Assembly (NCBI RefSeq): GCF_018771565.1
Contig: NZ_CP076326.1
Coordinates: forward strand, 2,232,001-2,296,000
DNA from: Thermoflexus hugenholtzii
Lineage (GTDB): Bacteria > Chloroflexota > Anaerolineae > Thermoflexales > Thermoflexaceae
Reading direction: 5' to 3'
Length of the DNA: 64,000 nt
Shown in pieces: positions 22,836 through 27,770 of this stretch; the first letter of the stretch is position 1; each line of letters opens with the position of its first letter. The position numbers were made by a program, and so were the translations under genes. The notes under the pieces were generated by a model that worked only from the letters and a program-made list of their open reading frames with translations, made no database searches and was not told the origin of the DNA.

Positions 22836-23327
22836 CTCCGCTTCCCTCCGGAGGCCCGACCCCCCAGGGGGTCGGGCAGGGATGAGGCCGAGAGGACATC
22901 CGAGACGCTCACGCCTCCAGCGGTTCGCGGCGCGCAGGACCCAACGGCTCACCCGGAAACGACCAGCCCGCGAAACGAGGAAAAGCCCTGCCGGAGCTTC
23001 CCCGAGGCGCTCCAGAGGAGATCCATCCCCATCCTACCACACGCGCCTCAGAATTCCGTAAGAGCCCAGTGGATCCACGAGGCCAATATTCCCGAATTGT
23101 TTTGCGTATATATTGCACTATATCGAAATTTTCGCTGAAACATTCGCGAGAAATACGCCGAATATGAGCGCTTTCGCGCGATATTACAAAGTTCAAACAG
23201 AGAAATGGGAGCGGTGGGGGGCGGGGGTGTTGTCCGGTGGGGGGAGGGGATCTGTCGTGGAGGCGGGGATCAGGTTATAATGGAGGGGCTCCGGTCGGGA
23301 GCGGGAACCTTTCGAGGGAGGAAAGCG
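22836..23327. other. 490-bp gap with a 5'-UTR hairpin and an AT-rich island
   Basis: No gene is visible. An 11-bp stem (22854-22864 with 22867-22877, very short loop) lies just upstream of the MFS ribosome site on the minus strand. The stretch 23101-23200 is about 39% GC, far below the surroundings. Its role is unknown; it could hold promoters or be a foreign remnant. Confidence 0.5.
23276..23281 (+). promoter_or_regulatory. -10 box upstream of secG
   Basis: A perfect TATAAT stands 47 bases before the secG start. The -35 region (23253-23258, TGTCGT) is weak. Confidence 0.5.
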
Positions 23328-23564
23328 GTGGCTACGGCGTTGAACATCGCGCAGATCCTGCTGGCGATCGCCCTGATCGCCATCATCCTGCTGCAGGCCG
23401 GCTCCTCGCAGCTGGGAGGGGTGTTCGGCCTGGGGGATGTGGGAGTGCCCCGGAAACGGCGGGGCCTGGAGCGCACCGTCTTCAACCTCACGATCTTCCT
23501 GGCCGTCCTCTTCCTGGTCCTGGCGGTGGTGAACGTGATCGTGACCGGCACCCCCACCGGCTGA
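23328..23564 (+). CDS. secG: preprotein translocase subunit SecG
   Basis: SecG is the small accessory subunit of the SecYEG translocon. The 78-residue protein has two membrane helices (about 3-21 and 50-72). They flank the conserved LLQAGSSQLGGVFGLGD segment, typical of the Gly-rich SecG loop. The start is a GTG at 23328 with GGAGG at 23317-23321. The frame is open further upstream, but that region has no homology. The gene ends 9 bases before the oligopeptide-binding protein. Confidence 0.9.
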   Translation: MATALNIAQILLAIALIAIILLQAGSSQLGGVFGLGDVGVPRKRRGLERTVFNLTIFLAVLFLVLAVVNVIVTGTPTG

Positions 23565-23573
23565 AGGAAGGCG

Positions 23574-25250
23574 ATGGCCACCCGTCCACGTGATCCCACC
23601 CTGGCGCGCGGGCTCTACTTCCCCCTGATCCTCCTGACCCTCACCGCCCTCGGCCTGGGGACGATGATGCTCTCCCTCATCCTGCGGGCGGGCGTGGAGA
23701 CGGTCCCGGCCCGCGGGGGACATTACACGGAGGCGATCGTGGGTCCGATCACCACCCTGAATCCCCTCCAGGTCCAGCCTGGGGATCCCGAGGGAGAGCT
23801 CACGCGCCTGATCTTCAACGGCCTGGTTCGGCTGGACGAGCAGGGGCTTCCGGTGGGCGACCTGGCCCAGCGCTGGGAGGTCTCCGAGGACGGCCTGCGC
23901 TACACGTTCTACCTGCGCCCGAACGTCCGCTGGCACGACGGGGCTCCTTTCACGGTGGAGGACGTGCTCTTCACGGTGCGCCTGCTCCAGTCCGAGGAGC
24001 TGCCCGGTCCGCCGGAACGGGCCCGTCTCTGGCGATCCATCGAGGTCGTCCCGGTCAACAGCCTGACGGTGCAGTTCCGGTTGCCGGAGCCCCTGGCGCT
24101 TTTCCCCGATCTGCTGACCTTCGGGATCCTGCCGGCCCATCGCCTCCGCGACGTCCCGCCGGCCCAGCTGAACACCCATCCCTTCCACCTGAACCCCATC
24201 GGCACCGGGCCGTATCGGGTGGAGGCCGTCCGCGTCGAGGAGGGGCGGATCCAGCAGATCGTCCTCTCCGCCAACCCGCAGTATTTCCGGGGTCCGCCGC
24301 TGCTCGAGCGCCTCGAGTTCCGGATCTTCCCGGACACCCGCACGGCCCTTCAGGCTTACCGGGCGGGGGAGGTGCAGGGCATCGCCCGGATCTTCCCCAC
24401 GGATTTGGATCAGGTCCGCGCCCTGCCCTCGCTGAACCTGTTCTCCGCCGTGCTCTCCGGTTACGAGGCCATCCTGCTGAACCACGCTTCTCCCCTCTTC
24501 CGAGAGGCCGAGGTGCGGCAGGCCCTCTGGCTGGCCCTGGATCGCCAGCGGCTGATCGATCGGTTCCTGGCCGGCCAGGGCGTGGTGGCGGACAGCCCGA
24601 TCCCGCCGGGGAACTGGGCGCGCCATCCCGCGCTCCCGCCGGTCCCTTATGATCCGGCGAAGGCCCGAGCCCTTCTGGAAGCACGGGGATGGGTGATCCC
24701 GGAGGGCGGGACGATCCGGCAGAAGGGGGATCAGGTGCTCCGGTTCCGCCTCGCCGCGAGCGCGGATGGCTTCCATGAGGTGCTGGCCCAGGAGATCGCT
24801 CGACAATGGGAGGAGATCGGGGTGAAGGTGGACGTCGATCCCATCCCCGGGGATCTGGTGGGACAGGTGCTGGCCCCTCGCCAGTTCGACGCGGCCCTGG
24901 TGGAGATCATGGTCCCCGGGGATCCGGACCCTTACCCGCTCTGGCACGAGACGCAGGTGGAAACCGGGCAGAACTACGGGGGGTTCCGGGATCGGGACAT
25001 CAGCGAGGTGATCGAGGAGGCCCGCCGGGTCTTTGACATCGCCCGCCGGCGGGAGCTTTACTGGCGCTTTCAGGAGCTCTTCCAGAAGAAGGCGCCGGCC
25101 ATCCTGCTCTACTATCCGGTTTACACGTTCGCGGTGGACGAGCGGATCTCCGGGATCCAGGTGGGGGCGTTATTGAACACCCCGGCGGACCGCCTGGATG
25201 GGATCACCGGATGGTATACCCTGGTGCGGCGACGGATCATCGTGCGATAG
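23574..25250 (+). CDS. ABC transporter substrate-binding protein, family 5 (peptide type)
   Basis: This extracytoplasmic binding protein of 558 residues belongs to the DppA/OppA class. An N-terminal hydrophobic helix (about 15-38) acts as signal or anchor; there is no lipobox Cys. The mature part shows LTRLIFNGLVRLDEQG and LAQRWEVSEDGLRYTFYLR (residues about 80-120), the SBP_bac_5 signature. No permease or ATPase gene accompanies it, so it either serves a remote transporter or is a stand-alone binder. It is 19 bases before the thioredoxin-like gene and probably co-transcribed with secG. Confidence 0.87.
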   Translation: MATRPRDPTLARGLYFPLILLTLTALGLGTMMLSLILRAGVETVPARGGHYTEAIVGPITTLNPLQVQPGDPEGELTRLIFNGLVRLDEQGLPVGDLAQRWEVSEDGLRYTFYLRPNVRWHDGAPFTVEDVLFTVRLLQSEELPGPPERARLWRSIEVVPVNSLTVQFRLPEPLALFPDLLTFGILPAHRLRDVPPAQLNTHPFHLNPIGTGPYRVEAVRVEEGRIQQIVLSANPQYFRGPPLLERLEFRIFPDTRTALQAYRAGEVQGIARIFPTDLDQVRALPSLNLFSAVLSGYEAILLNHASPLFREAEVRQALWLALDRQRLIDRFLAGQGVVADSPIPPGNWARHPALPPVPYDPAKARALLEARGWVIPEGGTIRQKGDQVLRFRLAASADGFHEVLAQEIARQWEEIGVKVDVDPIPGDLVGQVLAPRQFDAALVEIMVPGDPDPYPLWHETQVETGQNYGGFRDRDISEVIEEARRVFDIARRRELYWRFQELFQKKAPAILLYYPVYTFAVDERISGIQVGALLNTPADRLDGITGWYTLVRRRIIVR

Positions 25251-25269
25251 CCTCTCCGGGAGGGGAAGG

Positions 25270-25782
25270 ATGGGGCCTCTGGAGGTGGTGAACCGTTATT
25301 CGTTCCTGGTTCTCGGGGGAGCGGCCCTGCTCGGGCTGGCCGTCGTGCTGGGGCTGCGACGCGCGGGCGGGATCGGCTGGGGGATCTGGCTCCTGCTCCT
25401 GATCGCCCTAATCGCCTTCGGGCTGTCCCGACGGGCGCAGCCGTCCGCGCCCTTCTTCTCGGAGGAGGAGATCGCAGCCGCCTGGCGGAGCGGACGGCCG
25501 GTCCTGGTCTACTGGTTCTCGAACTACTGACTGGGGTGCCTCTCCATCCAGCCTGCCGTGCGCAGGCTCGAGCGGGAGTGGCAGGGTGGAAAGGTGCTCT
25601 ACGTGGAGGCGCTGAGCCCGGCCGGGCGGGCCTTCGGCCAGCGGTGGGGGTTGCGGCTCACCCCCTCCCTCGCTCTGTTCGATGCCCAGGGCCGTCTGGT
25701 TCACGTCTGGACGGGCGCGACGACGATCCCGGGGGTGGAGGAGCTGGAGCGGCGGCTGCGGGAGCCCGGCGTCCCGGAGTGA
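25270..25782 (+). CDS. putative selenoprotein: membrane-anchored thioredoxin-like protein (UxxC) with in-frame TGA
   Basis: The frame begins with two hydrophobic segments (about 10-28 and 36-52) and then a thioredoxin-like domain. It reaches VLVYWFSNY, where a TGA codon (25528-25530, codon 87) stands, then continues in the same frame as LGCLSIQPAVRRLE and on to a stop at 25780-25782. The TGA replaces the first Cys of a CxxC motif, giving U/C-L-G-C. After it, coding quality stays high (GC-rich third bases) and a cis-Pro type TPS motif follows. A 7-bp hairpin lies 19-38 bases after the TGA. Read-through with selenocysteine would give 170 residues. Alternatives are a fresh nonsense mutation or a sequencing error. 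The ATG follows GGGAGGGGAAGG. Confidence 0.65.
25550..25568 (+). promoter_or_regulatory. candidate bacterial SECIS hairpin
   Basis: AGCCTGC (25550-25556) pairs perfectly with GCAGGCT (25562-25568) around the loop CGTGC. The loop begins 26 bases after the TGA and has G as its second base. Both fit the known features of bacterial SECIS elements. CTCC/GGAG (25542-25545 with 25575-25578) could extend a lower stem. Confidence 0.5.
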
Positions 25783-26929: not shown

Positions 26930-26994
26930 TCGCTCTGAGGTTCAAACCTGAGCTGGGACAGGCGGGAAGAGGCCGGGAGCCGAACCGGTTTTCG

Positions 26995-27770
26995 CAGGAA
27001 CGGCTTCCGCCGCGACCCCTGCGCCGTCGAAGCCGAAGGGTTCGGGGCGAAAGCCCCCTCCGTAATCCGAAATTCATTTCGGCATCCATGTTTGTAGGAG
27101 CGGCTTTCGCGGCGACCTTTGCGGGATCGGGAAGACAGGGTTCGAACGGTAGGAGCGGCTTCAGCCGCGACCCTTTGTGTCATCGAAAACTGGAGGTCCG
27201 GAGTTGTCGAGGCGGCTTCCATTCCGACCATCTCATCATCGAAGACGGAGGTTCGGGGCTAAAGCCCCTCCTACAAAAATCGTCTTTTGGTAGGAGCGGC
27301 TTTCGCCGCGACCATTGCGTCATCGAAGACGGAGATTCGGGGTTGCAGGGACGGCCTTCACCAGGACCCTTTGCGGCCTCGAAGACAGGTTCGGGGCTAA
27401 AGCCCCTCCTACAAAAATCGTCTTTTGGTAGGAGCGGCTTTCGCCGCGACCTTCGCGTCATCGAAGACGGAGGTTCAGGGTTGCAGGGATGGCCTTCACC
27501 AGGACCCTTTGCGGCCTCGAAGACAGATTCGGGGCTAAAGCCCCTCCTACAAAAATCGTCTTTTGGTAGGAGCGGCTTTAGCCGCGACCTTTGCGTCATC
27601 GAGAGCCAGGGGTTTGGGGTTGTCGGGGTGGTGTCCGTTGTGACCCTTGCGTCATCGAAGGCGGAAGGTTCGGGGCGAAAGATCCTCCTACAAAAACCGT
27701 CTTTCGTAGGAACGGCTTCCGCCGCGACCCTTGCATCATCGAAGACGGAGGGCCCGGGGCGAAAGCCATT
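26995..27770. repeat. REP-like hairpin array, about 138-bp period
   Basis: At least six copies of GTAGGAGCGGCTTTCGCCGC-like sequence are present. Most alternate with an opposite-type element, GGGGCTAAAGCCCCTCCTAC. Left elements start at 27290, 27428, 27566 and 27706, giving a period of 138-140 bp. Each element forms a 5-bp stem with a 4-base loop. The look is that of REP/BIME elements known from gamma-proteobacteria and linked there to RAYT transposases. No RAYT gene is in the window and none of the ORFs crossing the array is credible. Confidence 0.85.

Follow-up and report, generated by a model that had tools for sequence, protein, structure and literature searches.

The gene at positions 25270-25782 of the window, the 64,000-nucleotide stretch of Thermoflexus hugenholtzii DNA that was analyzed, very probably encodes a selenoprotein with a thioredoxin-fold core; judged from the sequence data, the probability of this reading is about 0.92. 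A gene that seems to be broken by a stop codon would then specify a selenium-containing redox protein, and the same signal is found in dozens of related Chloroflexota species. The computations established the Sec codon with its SECIS element, the presence of the decoding machinery, the class of fold and the selection that extends across the UGA. A preliminary description of the sequence had proposed a selenoprotein, and the Sec machinery, the conserved TGA, the covarying SECIS and the purifying selection strongly support that proposal.

The reading frame and its UGA codon

Translation of the plus-strand frame at 25270-25782 revealed a single interruption, the TGA at 25528-25530, followed by the terminal TGA at 25780-25782 (Table 1). 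The preliminary description had placed an in-frame TGA at the position of the first Cys of a CxxC motif and had maintained that the same frame stays coding beyond it as far as a normal stop. Both statements proved correct, and the TGA is codon 87. In the read-through product, the motif surrounding this codon is FSNY-U-LGC. The gene is probably split or truncated by ordinary annotation, an expectation raised by the in-frame TGA, because the usual bacterial code splits it into two fragments. The host genome consists of one contig of 3,316,678 bases, of which the window spans positions 2,232,001-2,296,000, and is 98.6% complete.

Table 1. Positions of the selenoprotein gene, its parts and associated genes (window coordinates unless a contig is named)
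Feature	Position	Strand	Basis
secG, at the head of the likely transcription unit	23205..23564	+	TIGR00810, 44.5 bits, above cut-off
SBP_bac_5 peptide/nickel-type ABC substrate-binding protein, directly upstream	23574..25250	+	gene order in four Thermoflexus loci
Candidate ribosome-binding site, purine-rich GAGGGGAAGG directly 5' of the ATG	25260..25269	+	sequence; inference
Selenoprotein gene, 170 aa, ATG start, Sec at codon 87, stop TGA 25780-25782	25270..25782	+	read-through translation and homologues
Two predicted transmembrane helices, about residues 9-55, RR between them	25294..25434	+	hydropathy, K+R counts, AlphaFold
Thioredoxin-fold domain, about residues 61-165, cis-Pro-type TP at 131-132	25450..25764	+	Pfam (weak), PDB profile, Foldseek
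Sec codon TGA; UxxC motif, residues 87-90	25528..25530	+	51 TGA and 6 TGC among 57 distinct genes
bSECIS apical stem-loop; stem of 7 bp, CGUGC loop (25557-25561)	25550..25568	+	conserved pairing and covariation
selD with its own in-frame TGA at the catalytic position, ASCAGUASKM (L057)	G000:C1:2801258-2802193	-	translation

Selenocysteine decoding machinery

The genome was searched for the components of selenocysteine insertion, and selA, selB, selD and tRNA-Sec(UCA) were all present. The tRNA-Sec, with the anticodon TCA, scored 78.1 bits against a gathering score of 47. SelA and SelD gave 465 and 377 bits, respectively, while SelB gave 298 bits, or 326 once its C-terminal part, which lies in the same frame of 637 residues, was included. 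The TGA at the catalytic position of selD indicates a minimum of one further, independent Sec gene in this genome. The suggestion that the molybdenum cofactor genes fit a Sec-containing formate dehydrogenase was not upheld. The best match to the formate dehydrogenase alpha subunit in the genome scored 79.5 bits (cut-off 814), no frame matching that subunit has an in-frame TGA and no Sec formate dehydrogenase was found.

SelA is present in 53 of 60 relatives, and its co-occurrence with the gene is uninformative because nearly all of these genomes possess it anyway. One genome that is 84% complete (G006) has the Sec form of the gene, yet no SelA was found in it, which is read as incompleteness of the genome.

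Conservation of the UGA and selection on either side

Codon 87 was compared in 57 distinct genes from dozens of family-level groups across the Chloroflexota. It is TGA in 51 genes and TGC in the remaining six; neither TAA nor TAG, nor any other codon, occurs at this position, and the homologues thus have Cys or TGA exclusively. Among the 60 relatives, the same TGA was present in all eight Thermoflexus genomes in which the gene was found, the source genome included, and the TGA form also occurs in many other families of Anaerolineae. The protein of Thermoflexus sp. 629H.11 (L018) is 87% identical, and its gene has the same TGA.

A family profile (A1) made from 24 sequences was run against 400 genomes of the phylum and 298 of the class. 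With a threshold of E <= 1e-24, the gene was detected in 91 of the 298 Anaerolineae species, about a third. The in-frame TGA was present in 77 of the 93 matches from the class genomes. Within Thermoflexus, dN/dS ranged from 0.16 to 0.38 on the 5' side of the TGA and from 0.15 to 0.50 on the 3' side. Purifying selection is of similar strength on either side, and the related strains showed no decay of the gene.

The SECIS hairpin

A hairpin begins 19 nt 3' of the TGA. Its arms occupy 25550-25556 and 25562-25568, and 26 nt lie between the UGA and the loop, whose second base is G. These features agree with the preliminary description, which had reported a 7-bp stem, the loop CGTGC, 26 intervening bases and G as the second loop base. 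The published limits of the bSECIS are a loop of 3-9 nt, a stem of 4-16 bp, a minimum free energy <= -7.5 kcal/mol, a G within the first two loop positions and a distance of 16-37 nt from the UGA (PMC13188914). The window hairpin conforms to this model, with a loop of 5 nt, a stem of 7 bp, G in the second position, a spacing of 26 nt and an energy of -20.5 kcal/mol over 50 nt, and its pairing covaries among the homologues.

Single-sequence folding energy was tried and rejected as evidence for the SECIS (z = -0.17 against shuffles of this GC-rich sequence). The single-sequence evidence offered earlier was weak, because shuffled sequences are about as stable as the hairpin. The hairpin becomes decisive only in combination with comparative data, since the TGA is conserved in 51 of the 57 genes and the pairing covaries beyond the coding constraint.

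The null model for pairing was obtained by shuffling synonymous codons within each gene, which leaves the protein and the codon usage unchanged. When the five core pairs were scored in the 51 Sec genes, 240 of 255 cells were paired, compared with 166.4 ± 5.2 expected and a null maximum of 183. All five core pairs were formed in 37 of the 51 Sec genes, where the synonymous shuffles predict 3.4. The mean folding energy of the Sec genes over 24 nt was -9.4 kcal/mol, as against -5.2 kcal/mol in the shuffles. The hairpin is absent from the six Cys genes, in which pairing did not exceed the null expectation (9 paired cells of 30; 9.7 expected).

In an alignment of 25 sequences, 92% of the cells were paired, two-sided changes were found in 25 cells (8.2 ± 2.3 expected) and the covariation score was 0.430 as compared to 0.206 ± 0.022. 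Sliding one arm by a single base caused the pairing to collapse. The loop starts with (N)GU in every case. This GU can be explained by coding too, because it sits in an invariant Val codon; the pairing of the stem, unlike the loop GU, is not explained by coding.

Fold, membrane anchor and orientation

AlphaFold, supplied with two sequences, returned one model clearly ahead of the other four, with a mean pLDDT of 71. N-terminal helices at residues 3-32 and 34-55, predicted with low to moderate confidence, are followed by the thioredoxin domain. The UxxC sits at the beginning of a helix (residues 88-103) and a cis-Pro-type TP is found at 131-132, as expected of the thioredoxin fold. Thioredoxins were on top when the PDB was searched with the family profile (best E = 2.8e-22), and a Foldseek search with the AlphaFold model retrieved thioredoxin 1 (E = 2.6e-6). 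Among the positions that do not vary across 24 aligned members are the Sec or Cys, its resolving Cys and the proline of the cis-Pro loop.

The best Pfam match of the window protein was Thioredoxin_2 (PF13098), at 21.8 bits with a cut-off of 27. The score for PF00085 was 20.5 bits, below the cut-off of 23.5, and no equivalog thioredoxin model of NCBIfam was reached (17.5 vs. 96.8 bits). The protein belongs to a divergent, membrane-anchored thioredoxin-like family and is not a plain thioredoxin, which refines the preliminary description.

Some members of the family have one membrane helix and others have two. The loop linking the helices is positively charged in the two-helix members, most clearly in L035, L036 and L050. 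This charge points to an outside location of both ends and hence of the thioredoxin domain. In the Thermoflexus protein RR is found on both flanks of helix 2 and the charges are ambiguous. Judged by the counts of loop charges, it is moderately likely that the thioredoxin-fold domain faces outwards.

Gene neighborhood

The SBP_bac_5 gene ends 19 bases 5' of the selenoprotein ATG, and this order is kept in the four Thermoflexus loci examined. The Thermoflexus neighbors, secG and the ABC binding protein, gave no clue to function, and no gene of the thioredoxin system is found beside the gene in this genus. In a set of 40 loci from the family, genes for thioredoxin or thioredoxin reductase adjoin the family gene in eight. 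A canonical CxPC thioredoxin gene lies directly upstream in six of the 40 (G055, G025, G010, G050, G043 and G069). Thioredoxin reductase was found in three, 15 nt downstream in G016 and as part of a cluster in G010 and G073. One of the 40 loci has an OsmC gene, and ccsB, a gene of cytochrome c maturation, is upstream in one other. Since the eight loci with thioredoxin-system genes come from eight different family groups, a role in thiol redox transfer is supported, although the substrate is not fixed by this association.

Short GC-rich repeats, GGTAGGAGCGGCTTTCGCCGCGACC... and AGGTTCGGGGCTAAAGCCCCTCCTACAAAAATCGTCTTT, also form an array in the window, at positions 26983-27767. The repeats are partly tandem with a 138-bp period, and their inverted-repeat character resembles that of REP elements.

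Proposed function and alternative explanations

Codon 87 would be decoded as selenocysteine by SelB and tRNA-Sec with the aid of the SECIS stem-loop in the downstream coding sequence, giving a thioredoxin-fold protein that has UxxC as its active site, the customary cis-proline and an N-terminal membrane anchor. The product is predicted from these features to be, probably, a membrane-anchored, outward-facing thiol-disulfide reductase. The selenolate of Sec would attack a disulfide of the substrate, and the resolving Cys-90 would then release it as a selenenylsulfide. An outward-facing domain would need electrons from the cytoplasm by way of a CcdA/DsbD-type route. Tentatively, the cytoplasmic chain of NADPH, thioredoxin reductase and thioredoxin may supply them through such a membrane carrier to the domain. 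A single DsbD_TM/CcdA-like gene was found in the genome (G000:C1:314198-314722); at 27.4 bits it barely exceeds the Pfam cut-off of 27.1.

The possibility was considered that the selenoprotein has another function, as a membrane thioredoxin that faces the cytoplasm, a peroxidase-like enzyme or a protein that handles selenium or metals. The cytoplasmic TrxA and TrxB encoded beside the gene in some genomes, the OsmC gene in one and the weak evidence for CcdA are in keeping with such roles. However, the loop charges favor an outward domain, UxxC together with cis-Pro is the arrangement of a reductase or isomerase, and ccsB is paired with the family gene in one locus. Another function is accordingly the less probable choice, but it retains appreciable weight.

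The decoding of UGA is in general limited by selenium, and the whole membrane anchor precedes the UGA. The codon could thus act as a selenium-sensing switch that yields an 86-residue membrane peptide without Sec and the full enzyme with it. The replacement of the codon by Cys in six lineages argues against a switch, which is considered improbable. Still less credible is programmed or leaky read-through of the UGA, with the insertion of Trp, Cys or another ordinary residue and the hairpin as the stimulator. Read-through can indeed be stimulated by downstream RNA structure, but the residue found in this column in place of the TGA is Cys in 6 of 6 cases, all components of the Sec pathway are encoded in the genome, together with selD as a second gene of Sec type, and the loop carries an invariant GU, as a target of SelB should. 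Although a lone in-frame stop is the picture of a recent pseudogene, and a nonsense mutation had been named as the main alternative, a decaying gene and a sequencing error were both rejected as having almost no likelihood, given the identical TGA in 51 distinct genes from dozens of family-level groups, with no TAA or TAG, the downstream purifying selection and the conserved SECIS pairing. Reassignment of TGA was likewise rejected, the TGA and SECIS being conserved and the same gene terminating at an ordinary TGA.

Relation to known selenoproteins

A Sec-containing thioredoxin (PF00085, UxxC) is listed as experimentally verified (PMC13188914). Like it, the window protein has a thioredoxin fold, a Sec that substitutes for the first Cys of the active site and a bSECIS within the coding region, but it differs in being membrane-anchored and in its divergent domain (20.5 bits vs. 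the Pfam cut-off of 23.5). The selenoproteins annotated as thiol:disulfide interchange proteins (PF13098, UxxC, WP_011366075.1; PMC13188914) belong to the Pfam family that the window protein matches best, though at 21.8 bits it remains below the cut-off of 27. The family resembles TxlA/HCF164, ResA and CcmG in its N-terminal anchor, thioredoxin domain and probable outward orientation, and has ccsB as a neighbor once. TxlA/HCF164, ResA and CcmG are Cys proteins. In contrast to them, the family has weak DsbE/ResA matches and no consistent linkage to cytochrome c maturation.

The "Trx-like 3" family of the GOS marine metagenome, reported in 2008, weakly matches cd02950, has a UxxC motif and comprises 212 Sec and 183 Cys sequences (PMC2398784). 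It is Trx-like, as is the window family, some members of which weakly match the cyanobacterial slr1796 model. The two may overlap. The Sec forms of the GOS family are about as common as its Cys forms; in most thioredoxin-like families of that survey the Cys forms are far more common (PMC2398784), whereas Sec is the majority state in the window family. Brachyspira Sec.1 and Sec.2 are thioredoxin-like selenoproteins of PF13192 that annotation had missed and that are clustered with a Cys homologue (PMC5330540). They too are bacterial thioredoxin-like selenoproteins, but they belong to another Pfam family and have CxU/UxC motifs.

In the 2026 catalogue of selenoproteins, Sec thioredoxins are listed along with many UxxC selenoproteins of Trx-like type, and the words Chloroflexota and Chloroflexi are absent from its text (PMC13188914). 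The window protein matched none of the NCBIfam selenoprotein models (June 2026). Weak matches to NF045694 (TsoB) were obtained with seven other members, the best at E = 8.6e-5, and weak matches to TIGR02187 (PDO_seleno_TRX) with three. The window family is not described in the parts consulted of the literature on selenoproteins in Chloroflexi, Chloroflexota, Thermoflexus and Anaerolineae. The chances are about even that the window family is an uncatalogued, ancestrally Sec family of the Chloroflexota that holds a selenolate active site outside the membrane and has changed from Sec to Cys repeatedly despite the presence of Sec machinery. If so, it would offer natural Sec/Cys pairs for asking why Sec is kept in bacteria.

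Exchange of selenocysteine and cysteine

A maximum-likelihood tree was constructed from 56 members, 50 of them Sec rows. The six Cys genes represent six state changes, five of which are forced by well-supported branches. The simplest reading is that Sec is probably ancestral and has been replaced repeatedly by Cys, since the Cys genes are six separate changes and the Sec rows extend across the whole tree. This is probable and not proven, because the sampling profile was Sec-rich and the tree has no outgroup. At least one genome with the Cys form (G027) still has selA. The six independent replacements of Sec by Cys provide a natural experiment on when Sec repays its cost, and the pairs of Sec and Cys orthologues are ready for enzymology.

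Departures from UxxC were also observed. Tandem Sec copies of the family gene occur in group f65, at L129:7164 and 7921 and at L127:7470 and about 8236. The second copy in L129 has UxxS (FSHYUAKS) in place of UxxC, and the second copy in L127 is similar. A UxxS member is also present as a single copy on the minus strand at L130:1636 (EVFSDTUGASLSAKP), where the SECIS pairing is intact.
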